This document shows positions 45,394 to 62,348 of a DNA stretch of 64,000 nt, piece after piece. How positions within the stretch are numbered: the first letter of the stretch is position 1; each line of letters opens with the position of its first letter. The translations under genes and the position numbers were made by a program. Source of the DNA: Thermophilibacter provencensis (lineage in GTDB: Bacteria; Actinomycetota; Coriobacteriia; Coriobacteriales; Atopobiaceae); the NCBI RefSeq assembly GCF_030372065.1, contig NZ_JAUDEA010000001.1:248001-312000 (forward strand), in the 5' to 3' direction. The notes below the pieces were generated by a model that saw nothing but the letters and a program-made list of their open reading frames with translations, had not been told where the DNA came from and made no database searches.

Positions 45394-45491
45394 CGGGTCA
45401 CCTCTCGCCCGTCACATATCTTGTCCCGAGCATTCTCCCACGAACAGGCCCGCTCCACAGGTATCCCATCGCCCACGCCTCTTGCCGGGCG

Positions 45492-45775
45492 CCGAGAAAA
45501 CCCCGCCTCTGTACCAGATTCGGGAAATGGCGCCGAGAAAGCCTCGCCTCTGTACCACACCCGCGAGACACATGCCGAGAAAACCTGGAGGCTGTACCAC
45601 CCAGTGCGATTCTCGCCGAGAAAACCTGGAGGCTGTACCACGCCCCCAGGCTGCCCGCCGACAAAACCAGCCCTCTGTACCACGCTGGCATCTCTACTGA
45701 GAATACCCGTGGTACAGAGGACGACTTTTATCGGCACCTCATCCAGAATCTGGTACAGAGGCGAGGTTTTCTCGG
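45492..45775. repeat. Array A: seven 26-bp units, five forward and two inverted
   Basis: Unit: CCGAGAAAACC, six or so variable bases, CTGTACCAC. Forward units start at 45492, 45533, 45575, 45616 and 45658; inverted units start at 45709 and 45751. Start-to-start distances are 41, 42, 41, 42, 51 and 42. Spacers of 15-16 nt (25 at the orientation switch) are unrelated to one another. It lies in the 550-bp gene-free gap upstream of rlmKL and beyond the S10 peptidase stop. No cas genes are near. Confidence 0.92.
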
Positions 45776-45778
45776 CAG

Positions 45779-45847: not shown

Positions 45848-45928
45848 CGGCGAGAAGGTCCGCCGCGAGTTCTGCAGCCGCGCGCCTTTTGCGCGGCGAA
45901 GCTGTCTGAGCGCCGGACCTTCTCGCCG
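45848..45928. repeat. Inverted repeat of the CGAGAAGGTCC motif
   Basis: Perfect 15-bp arms CGGCGAGAAGGTCCG and complement enclose an inner GC-rich hairpin. It lies 18 nt downstream of the S10 peptidase stop and may serve as its terminator. Confidence 0.75.
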
Positions 45929-56749: not shown

Positions 56750-57094
56750 ATGTTCACGTTCTGGCACAAAGAGTCCGAGTCCGTGCCCGAGGAGGAGCCC
56801 CAGCTCCCCGCCGACACCAAGCGCCTGCGCCTGCGCTTTGTGGGCGAGGTCCAGGGGGTGGGCTTCCGCTGGACCGCCTCGCTGGTGGCAAAGAACCTCG
56901 AGCTCACGGGATGGGTGAAAAACGAGCTGGACGGCTCGGTCACCGCAGAGATCCAGGGCAGCGAGTCGCATGTGGGCGCGTTCTTCTCGCAGATGCTCGA
57001 GCAGTACCGGCGTCACCCCATCCACTACGTGGTGTCCGAGCGCGAGGACATTGAGCCCCTGGTGGACGACAAGCGCTTTGAGGTGCGCTACTAG
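56750..57094 (+). CDS. Acylphosphatase
   Basis: Small 114-aa hydrolase of acyl phosphates. The core is LRFVGEVQGVGFRWTASLVAKNLELTGWVKNELDGSVTAEIQG at residues 27-70, with the catalytic Arg in GVGFR and Asn in VKNELDG. About 25 acidic residues precede the core. CGGAGGAGCC lies before ATG 56750. It is monocistronic, and repeat array B begins 26 nt after the stop. Confidence 0.93.
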   Translation: MFTFWHKESESVPEEEPQLPADTKRLRLRFVGEVQGVGFRWTASLVAKNLELTGWVKNELDGSVTAEIQGSESHVGAFFSQMLEQYRRHPIHYVVSEREDIEPLVDDKRFEVRY

Positions 57095-57119
57095 ACCGTA
57101 TACGGCTCTCGCCGACACA

Positions 57120-57465
57120 CCGAGAAAACCTGGGGGCTGTACCACATCTCCTCTGACATGGCGAGAAAACCCAGGGGCTGTACCACCAGTACGTGGGCGT
57201 GACGAGAAAACCTGGGGGCTGTACCACTTTCTTCTCGGCGCGCCGAGAAAAACCGCGGTCTGTACCAACGATGTGGGTGTCCACGCCTGTGGAAACGATT
57301 CCACTTCGTCTGAACCCGCTTCCTCGCGGTACAGAGGGCGGTTTTTCTACGACAGCGTGGTACAGATGTCGGAGTTTCTCGACATGAGCTCCACGCGCGT
57401 GGTACAGCTGCCCGGTTTTCTCGGCGCGTCTCTTTGATATTGGCACAGAGGCTGGGTTTTCTCAG
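57120..57465. repeat. Array B: eight 26-bp units, four forward and four inverted
   Basis: It has the same unit as array A. Forward units start at 57120, 57161, 57202 and 57243; inverted units at 57326, 57357, 57399 and 57440. Start-to-start distances are 41, 41, 41, 83, 31, 42 and 41. The central gap holds a palindrome GTGGAAACGATTCCAC (57289-57304). It fills the 450-bp gap between acylphosphatase and tRNA-Phe. Confidence 0.92.
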
Positions 57466-57544
57466 CAGGCGGCGCAGGCAGCCCACATGCGCCCGTCATA
57501 GCAAAGCAGGCCGGAGACACATGGCCTCCGACCTGCGAAAGTTC

Positions 57545-57620
57545 TGGTGGCGGGGAAGGGAGTCGAACCCCTGACACGGGGATTTTCAGTCCCCTGCTCT
57601 ACCAACTGAGCTACCCAGCC
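57545..57620 (-). tRNA. tRNA-Phe (anticodon GAA)
   Basis: A 76-nt cloverleaf on the minus strand with encoded CCA. D arm GCTC...GAGC, anticodon stem GGGGA/TCCCC with loop CTGAAAA (GAA), and T loop TTCGACT. The acceptor stem has a U4-C69 mismatch (GGCTGGG against CCCCGCC). Confidence 0.95.
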
Positions 57621-57693: not shown

Positions 57694-58027
57694 CTAGAGG
57701 GCGCCGAAACCGCCAACCCTTCTGACGGCAGTCGCATACACCTCGTCAGATGCCCGAACGCCAACTACAACGACGACCATCTTTTTTCGCCTCTCGCTTG
57801 AGGTAACGCACGATTCTGAGGCCCGATCCCCTGAGCTTGATCTTCAGCAAGCCCGTGAGGTCTCTGCCTCCCCGGTTGCCAAGGGGTTTTCCATACCCTC
57901 CCTCCGACTGTGGCAATGGGTTAACCGCAACTCTGTTTATCGCCTTTGCCACAAGGCGCCTCTGCGAAGGTTCCAGCTTTGCGAGATCGCGATTGGCTTG
58001 CGGGAGGTTAACAACTGTCCAGCTCAC
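57694..58027 (-). pseudogene. RelE/ParE-family toxin with frameshift
   Basis: Toxin partner of the 58024-58356 antitoxin. From ATG 58027 the frame gives LEPSQRRLVAKAINRV...GRDLTGLLKIKLRGSGLRIVRYLKREAKK, as expected, then shifts at a run of six A (57782-57787) and ends at 57746 with an odd tail. One base less in that run restores MVVVVVGVRASDEVYATAVRRV, the standard ParE ending, up to 57694. The gene is therefore probably inactive, or switched by slippage. ATGA overlap with the antitoxin. Confidence 0.78.
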
Positions 58028-58356
58028 TCCAGCTCCACTTCCACGCCTTCCAGTTCCTTATCGGTTACGCCAAGTTCGGACATGACATCCTCAAAGCGCC
58101 TGAGACTCGTGGTATCGCCGTCCCATTTTGCGAGGCGCTCCTTTGCCAGGGCAAGATCCGCGGCATCCTCGGCATCCTCGCGCAGGCGCTCGTACTCTCG
58201 CCACTCCTCGGGCGTGATCATGACGGCGGCGGGTACGCCACGTCTCATGATGACGACGGGGCTCCCCTCCCTCACCCGGTCGAGCGTTGCCGAGGCGGAC
58301 CTCTGAAGGTCGGACACGGGAACGAGGTTATCGAGCAAATCGGCCATTCCAGACAT
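58024..58356 (-). CDS. Phd/YefM-family antitoxin
   Basis: Antitoxin of 110 aa. The N-terminal YefM/Phd domain is LVPVSDLQRSASATLDRVREGSPVVIMRRGVPAAVMITPEEWREYERL at residues 11-58. The long acidic C-terminal helix would bind the toxin. AGGAGGATC precedes ATG 58356. The antitoxin is intact while its toxin is frameshifted. Confidence 0.88.
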   Translation of the reverse strand: MSGMADLLDNLVPVSDLQRSASATLDRVREGSPVVIMRRGVPAAVMITPEEWREYERLREDAEDAADLALAKERLAKWDGDTTSLRRFEDVMSELGVTDKELEGVEVELE

Positions 58357-58489
58357 ACGATCCTCCTGACTCCTTGATTGCCTTGCATCAGATTATATAT
58401 CTGAGTATATATGTAACTATGTGTTTGAATATGTAACTCATGCAAGAAGCCGGTGACGAGCCGTCTGGGGCAGGCCAAGAGGAGCGCGA

Positions 58490-59032
58490 TCAGTAGACAT
58501 CGATCGTGGGACCGGTCATGGTGAGGATGCAGCCGCACACGTCGATGGTGTCCCCGTACGAGACTATGACGCGCCCGCGCACCTCCCTTCCGTGATAGCG
58601 GGCGGGGTTGGTCGAGTCGAGGTCGCTGACCTCCATGCCATCGGGCGTCGGAACGATGCTGAGATGTCGCCCGGAGATGGCGGGCGAATGGAGGACTACG
58701 TCGTTTTCCGGCGCACGACCGATGGAGACGCCCTCGTCCGAGACAGCTATCCACACGTCAACGGAGGAGGTTCGCATCATCATGCCAACGCGCTCCGTAA
58801 GGGGCTCGCCGGCAGCCGCCGCAAGGTTAACCGTGTCTTCCGGACCGTCTTCCCCCACAAGCAGCGAGAGCGGGGCGCGCGGCGGGCGAGGAGCGTCCCG
58901 CGAGAAGTCGTAGAGACACCCGTAGCACACGTTCATGTCCGCATAGAGCTCCGCCCCGCACCTTGGGCAGACCTTCGTCTCAAAGCATCCGCTCGCTCGC
59001 ATTGCATTGGCTCTCTCCATCGTCTCTCCCAT
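58490..59032 (-). CDS. Zinc-ribbon and FHA domain protein
   Basis: Product of 180 aa. A zinc ribbon is formed by Cys22, Cys25, Cys36 and Cys39 (CPRC...CYGC). The C-terminal FHA phosphothreonine-binding domain has VSIGRAPENDVVLHSPAISGRHLSI near 100-125 and DLDSTNPARYHG near 140. It is the last gene of the Tad operon (4 nt after DUF192), which suggests a link to phospho-signalling in pilus assembly. Confidence 0.88.
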   Translation of the reverse strand: MGETMERANAMRASGCFETKVCPRCGAELYADMNVCYGCLYDFSRDAPRPPRAPLSLLVGEDGPEDTVNLAAAAGEPLTERVGMMMRTSSVDVWIAVSDEGVSIGRAPENDVVLHSPAISGRHLSIVPTPDGMEVSDLDSTNPARYHGREVRGRVIVSYGDTIDVCGCILTMTGPTIDVY

Positions 59033-59035
59033 CTT

Positions 59036-59395
59036 CTATGCCGCAAGGGCGTCGGCACTTATCGACACTATCCAGAGGTGCTCCCCCTCCTCCAGCCACG
59101 GGCCCTCCCGCGACGGGCGCTCCATCACGCAGCACGCGGCCGCGTGCGAGGCAAACGCGCGCGGGCAGAGCCCCCGTCTGACCTCGAGCACCTCCCCCAG
59201 CTCACCGACAAAGGCAACGTCAATCGGGTAGGCCATCCCAAAGGTATGAATCGAGGCACACCTCGTGAGCATGACCGGGGACGCATCGGGCGATGTGCCG
59301 AGAAGACCGCGGATCTTCTCGCGCCATGAGCCCAGAACCCTGAACTCGAGCACCGTCTCCGGTCGCTCGTCGGACGCGAGCCTAACCGTTGCCAT
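59036..59395 (-). CDS. DUF192 family protein
   Basis: Product of 119 aa with the DUF192 pattern REKIRGLLGTSP...CASIHTFGMAYPIDVAFVGELGEVLEVRRGLCP...HAAACCVME. The family has a beta-barrel fold and unknown role, and is often encoded in Tad operons of actinobacteria. ATG 59395 abuts the stop of the TadE-like gene; the ORF extends further upstream in a shadow frame. Confidence 0.85.
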   Translation of the reverse strand: MATVRLASDERPETVLEFRVLGSWREKIRGLLGTSPDASPVMLTRCASIHTFGMAYPIDVAFVGELGEVLEVRRGLCPRAFASHAAACCVMERPSREGPWLEEGEHLWIVSISADALAA

Positions 59396-59396
59396 C

Positions 59397-59876
59397 TCAG
59401 ACCACCACCCCGGGCCGATACCTGTCCACAATGAGGGAGCGCTCGTGCGTGAGGGCAAAGGGCGCCCCGTAGGTGATTCCGGGCATGCGGACGCTCAAGG
59501 GCCACGGATGGTAGGTGAGCGTGCAGACATAGCGTGTGAGCAGGGGTGATAGAGCGAATGTCTCTCCCTGGGAAGAGGAGCCCGCACCCTCGGCCCGCAC
59601 GTCCACCTCGCACGACCCGTAGTCCTCGAGCGCCTCCGAAAGGGCACGTCTGACCTGCTCGACCGCGCCCCGCTCGCTCTGCTCCCCGCTCGGAGCCACC
59701 CCGTGAGCCACCACACAGTCGAGGGCCGCCTGGTCAAAGGCGGCGCAGGCAACGACGTAGCGCATCAGGTTGAAGACGATGAGCGTCATCACGATGACAA
59801 CGGGCGTGACGACGGCAAGCTCCACCGTCATCTGGCCGCGCGTGCCCCAGCCCGCATCTGCAAAGAGTCTTATCAT
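59397..59876 (-). CDS. TadE/TadF-like minor pilin
   Basis: Product of 159 aa. Short N-terminus RGQMTVELAVVTPVVIVMTLIVFNLM: Glu at position +5 of the hydrophobic segment is the TadE/pseudopilin hallmark. An exported domain with two Cys follows. It overlaps the TadG-like gene by 4 nt. It would be processed by a prepilin peptidase, which is not in the window. Confidence 0.85.
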   Translation of the reverse strand: MIRLFADAGWGTRGQMTVELAVVTPVVIVMTLIVFNLMRYVVACAAFDQAALDCVVAHGVAPSGEQSERGAVEQVRRALSEALEDYGSCEVDVRAEGAGSSSQGETFALSPLLTRYVCTLTYHPWPLSVRMPGITYGAPFALTHERSLIVDRYRPGVVV

Positions 59877-61933
59877 GCCGCATCACCCAAGCCCGAGAGG
59901 TCAATCGTGAGGGGTATGGAGATGCTGGTGCCGGGAATCGTGAGCTCGGCAACGGTGAAGATTCCCCCGCCCGTTTGATCGGAGAGCATGACTCCCACCT
60001 CCCGCGCAAAGTCAAAGATCGTGGGCGCGTCCGGCAAACGCTCGACGAGCTCCCTCAGCTCGGTTTGGTTGAATCCGCTCTTGCCCAGCACATCCTGGGT
60101 GTTGGTGAGAACGGGCTTTCTAAGGCGCATGTCCACGGGCTCGATTCCCACCGCATGGAAGGCGTCCTTGAGGCGCTCCCTGAGCCACGACCCAACGGAT
60201 CCGCCGAGAACCCCGTCAAGACCGTCGAGAAACTCGGATCCCGCCTCCGCCACGCCCCCGTACGCCGAGCCATACCCCATGAGAAGGGAGCCCCAGAGGT
60301 CGAGCACCCCGTCGGCGGCACCCCCAAGTGCGGACCCGCTCGCGACAAGCGAGTCAAAGAAGCTGGAGAGCACGTTGTTCTCCTCCGTGGCCTCGTCCGG
60401 GGCAAGCACGGCGGCAGAGACGGCCGCACCCGCGGGAAGCTCAGCAGATGAGAGAAACGCCCTCGTGAGCTCTGTGGGAACGGTCTTGCCGTCCGAGCGC
60501 GCCACCACGGAGACGCATCCCCACGCCCCTGGCGGGCAGACGGTGGGGCGCGTCACGGAGAGCTGCTCGAGCGCTTGGGAGAAGGACTCCTCGCCCTGCT
60601 CGGCGAGCCCCCTCGCGCGCTCCTCGGCGGCCATGAGCTCCGAGCGGGCGCGGGCGTAGTCCCTCGACGCATCCACGATGAGCCTCCAGTGATACTCAAA
60701 TCCGTTGTTGATGGAGGTGGACGCCGCCGCAACGCGGCCGAGGTCACCCACGTCCATGTGGCACACCTCGCAGCTCCCGACCTCGCCCGACTCAAGCTGC
60801 CGCAGGGAGGCCATCCCGGCGGGCTCGCCCTGCGCGCCGGGACACTCCGTCGAGCAGTGCAGCGTCCTCGCCTGGTCCTCCGTTGTGCAGGGCCACGTCT
60901 GCCGCGTGTAGAGCTCCGTCGAGCGGGTCTCGTCCGTGTTTCTCGGCAGGGAGGGAAGGTCAACGCGCACCGACCCGTCGATCATCTCCACGTACGAGCC
61001 GTGCAGGACCTCATCGAGCGCGTACTCGTAGAAGGCGCGCCGACACGCGGAGTCGGTGAGCTCCTCGACGCCCTGCCCCTCGGGGCACTCCGCGGCGAGG
61101 CGGGCCGCGTAGTAGGCGCGCGCCCTCAGGAGCGGCGCCCCAAACGACCAGCTCTCCACCGAGGCATAGTGCGGGTTCTCCGTTGAGGGGAGAGATGCCA
61201 GCGTGTCCGCGCGCTCCCTCAGGCAGTACAGCGAGGAGCCACAGTCCGCCGTCCAGCCGCGCAGGAGCGCCTCGTCCGCGCGACGGGCAGCGTCCTCTGC
61301 GGCGGCCGACGCCTCCCGCATCTCCTCCGAGAGCTCGCTCATCCCACCATCGTCCACCTCGCGCTCGAGCGCCGAGAAGTCCGACTCCGAGGTGAGGGGG
61401 AAGGGAAGCGCGCACCCCATATACGAGATGCCCCCATTTGAGTTGGCCGCGGCGCAGGAGGCCGAGTTCGCCACCACGAGCAGGGGAAGCGTTGCCTCCA
61501 GGCGCTCGATGCCCTCGGCGGCGCTTCTCACAAAGGACCCGCGGGCATCGAGTATCCTGCCTCCCGCCGAGCACAGACGTGCGCCGGTTGCGGTGAGCCC
61601 GGGAACGCACGAGGTCACAATGCCCGCCCCAAGAACCACGACGCCCGCCAGCCCCAGGCTGAGCGAGCAGGCGTCCACCACCTGGACAACGGTCGAGAAC
61701 GCAGCCACCGCGTTCTCCCCCGCAAGGGCCGTGGCGTCCGCGACGCGCTGCACCTCCGAGGAGCGCGACGCCACCCATCCGGCTGCCGCCGCGGAGAACA
61801 CGAGCGAGAGGCTCAGCAGGAGCGCAACCGCAACGGCAACGGTCGTGAAGCCGTCCTCGCTGTCCCTAAAGAGCGAGAGGACCGGCGCGCCCTGCCGGCC
61901 TTGTCTACCCCCACATGCCGATCCACTCCTCAT
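59873..61933 (-). CDS. TadG-like pilus assembly protein
   Basis: Large 686-aa protein with one N-terminal membrane segment (FTTVAVAVALLLSLSLVFSAAAAGWV near 29-54), followed by VQRVADATALAGENAVAAF, the Tad secretion-associated pattern. The extracellular part is Cys-rich (more than 20 Cys), with helical Ala/Glu-rich stretches. GGAGGGAAG precedes ATG 61933, which overlaps the upstream gene by 29 nt. The role in pilus biogenesis is inferred from neighbours. Confidence 0.8.
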   Translation of the reverse strand: MRSGSACGGRQGRQGAPVLSLFRDSEDGFTTVAVAVALLLSLSLVFSAAAAGWVASRSSEVQRVADATALAGENAVAAFSTVVQVVDACSLSLGLAGVVVLGAGIVTSCVPGLTATGARLCSAGGRILDARGSFVRSAAEGIERLEATLPLLVVANSASCAAANSNGGISYMGCALPFPLTSESDFSALEREVDDGGMSELSEEMREASAAAEDAARRADEALLRGWTADCGSSLYCLRERADTLASLPSTENPHYASVESWSFGAPLLRARAYYAARLAAECPEGQGVEELTDSACRRAFYEYALDEVLHGSYVEMIDGSVRVDLPSLPRNTDETRSTELYTRQTWPCTTEDQARTLHCSTECPGAQGEPAGMASLRQLESGEVGSCEVCHMDVGDLGRVAAASTSINNGFEYHWRLIVDASRDYARARSELMAAEERARGLAEQGEESFSQALEQLSVTRPTVCPPGAWGCVSVVARSDGKTVPTELTRAFLSSAELPAGAAVSAAVLAPDEATEENNVLSSFFDSLVASGSALGGAADGVLDLWGSLLMGYGSAYGGVAEAGSEFLDGLDGVLGGSVGSWLRERLKDAFHAVGIEPVDMRLRKPVLTNTQDVLGKSGFNQTELRELVERLPDAPTIFDFAREVGVMLSDQTGGGIFTVAELTIPGTSISIPLTIDLSGLGDAA

Positions 61934-62348
61934 AGCTTCCCTCCAGCCACTCCGCGCTCAGGGCGCACGAGACCTCAACGCGCACCACGACCTCCCCGCC
62001 GTCCACCGTTCCGAGCGCGGCGACAAGGGCCCCAAAGAGGGGCAGCGGACGCACCCTCCCCTCGATGGAGACGCTCACCCTCCCCTCATCGCCGGGGCCT
62101 TCGCACGAAACCTCCCACGCCCGTGGGCCGCCCGCGTGAAAGATGGACACGTCCGGCACCGCGGCGAGACGCCGCAGGGCATAGGCGCGCAGCTCCTCCT
62201 CCGACCCTCGCGACGTTGTCGTAAGGCGCGCGAGCTCGCCTGCCGTGGCCGCCATGACCGATCGGGTGTAGAGCACGCAGGCAGGCTGGACGAGCAGGGC
62301 GATGAGGGCGAGCGCGACCGGGAGGAGAAGCGCCGCCTCCACGCTCAT
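61905..62348 (-). CDS. TadE-like minor pilin
   Basis: Product of 147 aa: MSVEAALLLPVALALIALLVQPACVLYTRSVM is a TadE-type segment with Glu4. The usual RGQ lead is encoded just upstream in the same frame, but no start codon is there, so the start is uncertain. The C-terminal domain is beta-rich. It lies between a pilin-like gene and the TadG-like gene. Confidence 0.78.
   Translation of the reverse strand: MSVEAALLLPVALALIALLVQPACVLYTRSVMAATAGELARLTTTSRGSEEELRAYALRRLAAVPDVSIFHAGGPRAWEVSCEGPGDEGRVSVSIEGRVRPLPLFGALVAALGTVDGGEVVVRVEVSCALSAEWLEGSYEEWIGMWG

Follow-up and report, generated by a model that had tools for sequence, protein, structure and literature searches.

Helically phased, two-sided arrays of an asymmetric site in intergenic DNA of Thermophilibacter provencensis: possible protein-bound boundary elements

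Introduction

What is a cluster of short asymmetric repeats, four facing one way and four the other, doing between a small gene and a tRNA-Phe gene of Thermophilibacter provencensis, an Olsenella-related gut bacterium? The cluster, here called array B, lies in a stretch of 64,000 nucleotides (the window; contig NZ_JAUDEA010000001.1, positions 248,001 to 312,000) that also holds a similar array A. A sequence-only reading had taken the two for members of a family of elements and not for a local accident, and this is borne out by 33 arrays of at least two units in this genome and by others in related species. The array family is real, clade-specific and apparently constrained. No description of such arrays turned up in the open-licence literature searched, and dozens of intergenic arrays that are multi-site, helically phased and inward-facing have, to our knowledge, been described for no bacterial chromosome. 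Judged by their sequence pattern, it is well supported that the arrays are bound by protein; it is possible, and tentatively proposed, that they form two-sided boundaries or organise the chromosome, the boundary function being a reasoned guess.

Arrays A and B

Array B spans positions 57122-57463 of the window and is built from eight copies of a two-block, non-palindromic site, the first four forward and the other four inverted. Its location and composition had been read correctly, with the ends placed slightly too far out at 57120-57465, and its likeness in unit and polarity to array A, 11.6 kb away, also holds. In what follows G000 is the window genome and the other G-numbers are the relatives compared.

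57118..57267, plus strand: forward arm of array B, four units, each with a YGCC-like extension ahead of the core
57122-57144, 57163-57185, 57204-57226, 57245-57267, plus strand: the 23-bp forward cores of array B
57268..57326: centre of array B, 59 bp, with nothing in common with the other array centres
57327..57467, minus strand: inverted arm of array B, four units
57327-57349, 57358-57380, 57400-57422, 57441-57463, minus strand: inverted cores of array B
45494-45773: array A, five forward and two inverted units
45490..45682, plus strand: forward arm of array A, five cores starting at 45494, 45535, 45577, 45618 and 45660
45710..45777, minus strand: inverted arm of array A, two cores starting at 45710 and 45751; G028 has an array at the same site

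Spacing within the arms of array B is 41, 41 and 41 bp (forward) and 31, 42 and 41 bp (inverted), and the innermost units are 82 bp apart start to start, or 59 bp from unit edge to unit edge. The weakest unit, the inverted one at 57327-57349, has two mismatches. What had been called a central palindrome is an inverted repeat of 6 bp, GTGGAA/TTCCAC, with a 4-nt loop (GTGGAAACGATTCCAC); it is not a perfect palindrome, and the centre of array B has none that reaches 8 bp. With up to three mismatches the pattern GAGAAAACCNNGGGNCTGTACCA has 11 matches in the window, every one in array A or B, and none in 100 shuffles.

A genome-wide family with helical spacing

The site, YGCCGAGAAAA-N8-CTGTACCR, is about 27 bp long and is built of two unlike blocks; the consensus of 227 units, YGCCGAGAAAA-N-C-N6-CTGTACCR, has a variable, G+C-rich middle. 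A search of the genome (2.23 Mb, 35 contigs) with up to two mismatches gave 211 sites, and a reversed control pattern gave one. The stretches around listed matches, 396,018 bases including the window and picked for having matches, contain at least 33 arrays that have two units or more, 227 units altogether, and in 29 of these arrays there are at least four; the total of 33 is a lower bound, since the listed places are part of the 211 sites. With up to three mismatches these stretches yield 236 matches, against a mean of 2.85 over 20 shuffles.

Unit number and spacing differ from array to array, but spacing follows a narrow rule. Distances within an arm are 41 or 42 bp in 139 of 161 cases, and the other 22 are 31 (seven), 32 (six), 52 (two) and, once each, 38, 40, 51, 53, 54, 62 and 84 bp, with 38, 40 and 54 bp fitting a 10.4-bp ladder most poorly. 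At a period of 10.4 bp the phases of these 22 distances concentrate with R 0.83, and those of the innermost distances between forward and inverted units with R 0.88 (n=32). The latter equal 50 in 15 of 32 arrays and mostly fall on steps of about 10 bp otherwise, 47 and 104 fitting less well; some of the long ones hide indel-bearing units overlooked by the scan. As the spacing is quantised at about 10.4 bp, the sites would lie on one face of the DNA, which points to a DNA-binding protein. A role as RNA was set aside, without computing an RNA fold, since it is the DNA helix that the spacings follow.

The order of forward units followed by inverted ones is kept in 32 of 33 arrays whatever the directions of the flanking genes, the exception being a two-unit pair (L094). 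Little else is shared. A perfect palindrome of 12 bp or more occurs in one of 32 array centres and is unrelated to the inverted repeat of array B, which itself recurs in no other centre; the suggestion that accessory sites flank a conserved core is thus not upheld, as the centres compared share no evident sequence. Nothing is conserved outside the YGCC of the outermost unit in 29 arrays, which have no shared ends, and target duplications among the same number of arrays show no excess over shuffles. The spacer beside the outermost unit often bears a second, weak motif (STTTCNNGAAA; 47 spacers of 18 bp). Outside the motif the arrays of this genome are unrelated, the best pairs being 64-70% identical among the best 45 array-array matches listed.

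All 33 arrays are intergenic, clear of every gene that a simple gene caller predicted. The flanking genes are convergent at six arrays, divergent at ten and in tandem at 17, and in Pfam scans the 58 flanking genes examined, with a few others close by, have chiefly housekeeping functions. Array loci match nine of 20 sampled stretches of G022, from 0.13 to 2.36 Mb, some of them weakly; parB of G022 lies at 0.48 Mb, and no restriction of arrays to origin or terminus was seen across the sampled stretches.

Distribution and conservation among relatives

With at most one mismatch, matches are found in six of the 31 genomes of the genus (137 in G000, 170 in G030, 104 in G028, eight in G013, five in G027 and one in G022). 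A two-unit profile search matched nine of the 31, with at least 148 matches in G000, 181 in G030, 168 in G028, 12 each in G013 and G027, seven in G025, three in G004 and one each in G017 and G015. The G027 arrays were set aside because over long stretches their contig C105 is 95-99% identical to a G030 contig, which makes contamination likely. An array in G164, a genome of another family, is probably foreign, as its 3.2-kb contig (C133) is 76-83% identical to locus L086 of the window genome, and a 41-bp signal in G032 proved to be a repeat in two copies at the start of a gene. Across the order, 24 of 395 genomes have matches, 16 of them one match only; such single matches are regarded as background because the reversed control matches 16 genomes. 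In viral contigs 64 stretches have one match each and none makes an array, and a 12-unit array (L104) found no match among plasmids and phages.

Flank comparison, covering 30 loci from other genomes, shows that many array positions are common to two other Olsenella species, G028 and G030. Identity in 13 shared arrays is 83% for the motif columns (1095/1315) and 58% for the spacers (955/1653), a contrast that is large though biased toward the motif, by which the units were labelled; the inner N8 is 56% identical (394/703) and the 300-bp flanks 81% (5359/6621). The motif columns of shared arrays thus look constrained. Unit number varies in place between species, array A having five forward and two inverted units in the window genome and three forward and four inverted in G028. 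The possibility that A and B are one recent duplication is countered by the presence of A at the same site in G028 and the absence of B from both G028 and G030; nor is the A-B pair among the best 45 array-array matches listed.

In a second clade, G025 and G004, the motif has changed to GAGAAAA...CGTGTACCGGT, and the 31/41-bp spacing is retained. G025 has seven three-site arrays, in which some sites have three to four mismatches and the outer sites are always 80 bp apart, in the layouts F39R41R (four), F49R31R (two) and F31F49R (one), where F is a forward and R an inverted site; one of them sits between genes that we take to be rplL and rpoB. G004 has a single three-site array (81 bp) and a lone site.

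Loss of arrays in the closest relative

G013 is the closest relative found among 21 genomes (two genes with 97% and 95% identity at the amino-acid level). In a sample of 441,541 bases, flank matches were obtained for 11 of the 33 arrays of the window genome. Both flanks lie on one G013 contig for seven arrays (B, L096, L098, L100, the one at 6286 in L101, and two in L105), and in all seven the array is gone or reduced to at most two units; the array B site has a degenerate unit followed by about 1 kb of other DNA. The one-sided cases (A, L090, L093 and L099) show remnants or nothing, and two arrays known from G030-type contigs are likewise gone. G013 retains one array, across the ends of contigs C27 and C19, and four forward units at the end of contig C202.

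Since the positions are common to G028 and G030, this is loss in G013 and not gain elsewhere. The loss fits the disappearance of a binding partner, although recombination between units or assembly effects may also have produced it; the junctions are unlike one another. A search for genes of the window genome missing from G013, in which 80 genes were found, gave one weak, uninformative case. Several G013 contigs (C19, C27, C202 and C81; L110, L111, L112 and L136) stop inside or just before an array, and variation of arrays between strains may have broken the assembly there.

Candidate binding proteins

A JetD-like gene was rejected as the binder, being present in 22 of 27 genomes, mostly array-free, and missing from the array-rich G030. 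NA37, which lies beside an array, was likewise rejected, occurring in 31 of 31 genomes. A ParB-type binder was discarded as well: HTH_ParB gives one strong match in eight of nine genomes and only a weak one in G030. The count of strong matches in the window genome is that of array-free relatives, and the strong match there, at C30:73164, lies some 44 kb away from the closest array listed for the same contig. The weak second matches in the window genome and G030 presumably represent nuclease-like proteins and not ParB.

A UvrD/HelD-like helicase, found in 30 of 31 genomes, is a weak lead at most. Its gene in G013 (L442, contig C149) is a swapped allele, with downstream DNA 94% identical to that of the window genome. 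In trees the G013 protein groups with G019 (100/99), and the JetD-like (100/98), acylphosphatase-like (100/98) and NA37 (91/86) proteins place G013 with the window genome. The swap carries little weight because four of 67 genes fall below 85% identity between the two genomes, the helicase gene among them; the 67 are what remains of 82 best matches once the 15 lowest, with identities of 54% at most and probably non-orthologous, are taken away.

Possible functions

Each array may be a site cluster for one sequence-specific protein or complex. Several copies bound on one DNA face, in two facing arms, would form one symmetric nucleoprotein complex per array, and such a complex could block or anchor DNA-tracking traffic, be it RNA polymerase or a loop-extruding machine, alike from either flank. 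A boundary or organising role appears the most likely one because the arrays are intergenic only, occur in every gene arrangement and have a near-constant outside-in polarity. That they are in particular the bacterial counterpart of insulators or loop anchors is doubtful; in that case a clade-specific architectural protein would make convergent arrays into two-way barriers at several dozen transcription-unit boundaries, protein and sites would co-evolve, as the switch of motif from clade to clade would reflect, and arrays would be cleared when the system is lost, as in G013.

Several observations weigh against a boundary or organising role. No binder was found among the candidates examined, array-free relatives do without arrays, array B itself has no counterpart in G028 or G030, and the contrast between motif and spacer carries the labelling bias described above. 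In G030 two arrays that are 73.5% identical flank a 5.3-kb block (locus L041, 1871-7198) at a site that carries one array in the window genome and in G028; the block matched nothing else in the sequences compared, and we take its frames to be kinase-like, LytTR-like and glycosidase-like. Two G030 contigs also have arrays 89% identical together with a rearranged 711-bp stretch, which may reflect a strain mixture (G030 contamination is 7%) or a duplication. Arrays may accordingly be copied, used in, or subject to recombination.

These duplicate-like arrays and the 5.3-kb block make mobility more probable and an insulator less so. The arrays could be non-autonomous mobile elements, each made of two multi-site transposon ends of a Tn7-like type set nearly back to back, which spread long ago and are perhaps still able to carry gene blocks along. 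Tn7-like ends, bound by TnsB, have several asymmetric sites per end, mutually inverted, and PMC10201428 reports a measured activity with a 10-bp periodicity in site spacing; the arrays share the asymmetric sites, the opposed arms and the helical spacing. The patchy distribution within the genus, the G030 block and the near-complete clearing from G013 would also suit mobility. The usual array, however, has no cargo, target duplication or fixed termini, the spacers within the genome are unrelated, unit number and spacing vary, and positions are common to several species with motif columns that look constrained, so we consider mobile elements unlikely. The earlier idea of a recombination site fares similarly, in that neither target duplication nor shared outer sequence is found and the G013 loss junctions differ, but the two-array block of G030 leaves room for some such role. 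Operator clusters of a global transcription regulator would likewise be multi-site, sequence-specific and intergenic; ten of 33 arrays lie between divergent genes, and an inverted-forward pair of sites precedes the UvrD/HelD-like helicase gene in the window genome and G004, though not in G025, G028, G030 or G013. Yet six of 33 lie between convergent genes, polarity is independent of gene direction, the neighbours are chiefly unrelated housekeeping genes and in close relatives the same genes can stand without the array between them, which makes a regulator improbable.

The period of 41-42 bp, about four helical turns, recalls the twelve 43-bp repeats of sopC of plasmid F, which are also multi-copy phased sites. 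According to PMC9178275, each sopC repeat contains an inverted repeat of 16 bp to which a ParB dimer binds, and sopC is one locus, whereas the array sites are non-palindromic, stand in two opposed arms and form dozens of chromosomal arrays. A single partition site ill fits 33 arrays whose loci have matches scattered along the G022 chromosome in the 20 stretches sampled, and with a strong ParB match distant from listed arrays and no more numerous than in array-free relatives, partition or centromere-like sites are very improbable. Dispersed architectural sites such as matS and the Noc sites are single short palindromes with regional bias; the arrays resemble them in having many copies round the chromosome and a presumed architectural protein, and differ in being multi-site and free of regional bias in the sampled stretches. 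RAYT-associated repetitive extragenic palindromic (REP) sequences and bacterial interspersed mosaic elements are like the arrays in being dispersed in many copies, mostly extragenic, clustered with inverted copies and unrelated inter-unit DNA, and species-specific (here 211 sites, with all 33 arrays gene-free). REPs are described in PMC2817692 as imperfect palindromes in alternating orientation, unlike array units, whose blocks GCCGAGAAAA and CTGTACC in the 227-unit consensus are dissimilar and which stand head to tail within an arm, switch direction once per array and are helically phased.

If the arrays act as boundaries, bacteria would possess a sequence-defined insulator system. With array-rich genomes, three-site variants, a nearly purged sister and array-free relatives to compare, both origin and function can be tested.

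Neighbouring genes and minor observations

Array B is flanked by a convergent pair, a 114-aa gene and the tRNA-Phe gene that had rightly been named as its neighbour.

56750..57094, plus strand: 114-aa gene left of array B, presumably acylphosphatase-like by its signature
57545..57620, minus strand: tRNA-Phe (GAA), right of array B
58024-62348: Phd/YefM-type antitoxin gene, FHA protein and TadE-like protein, right of tRNA-Phe
45849-45928: long hairpin (GGCGAGAAGGTCCG...CGGACCTTCTCGCC) beside array A

The stretch at 58024-62348 is perhaps part of a Tad-type locus. Several similar copies of the hairpin adjoin the G028 array (L138) and form a separate repeat family. Elsewhere in the window genome, a lone JetD-like (JetD_C) gene lies 88 bp from an array (L090, 10714-11892), and the predicted genes of L090 include no remaining components of a Wadjet system. 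The pairs of an inverted followed by a forward site that precede the UvrD/HelD-like helicase gene in the window genome and G004 (L094, 6198-6303, and L413, 4109-4216) are 83-84 bp apart and have a conserved middle. G025 has an inverted-forward pair too, and in it as in G004 the distance is 84 bp.
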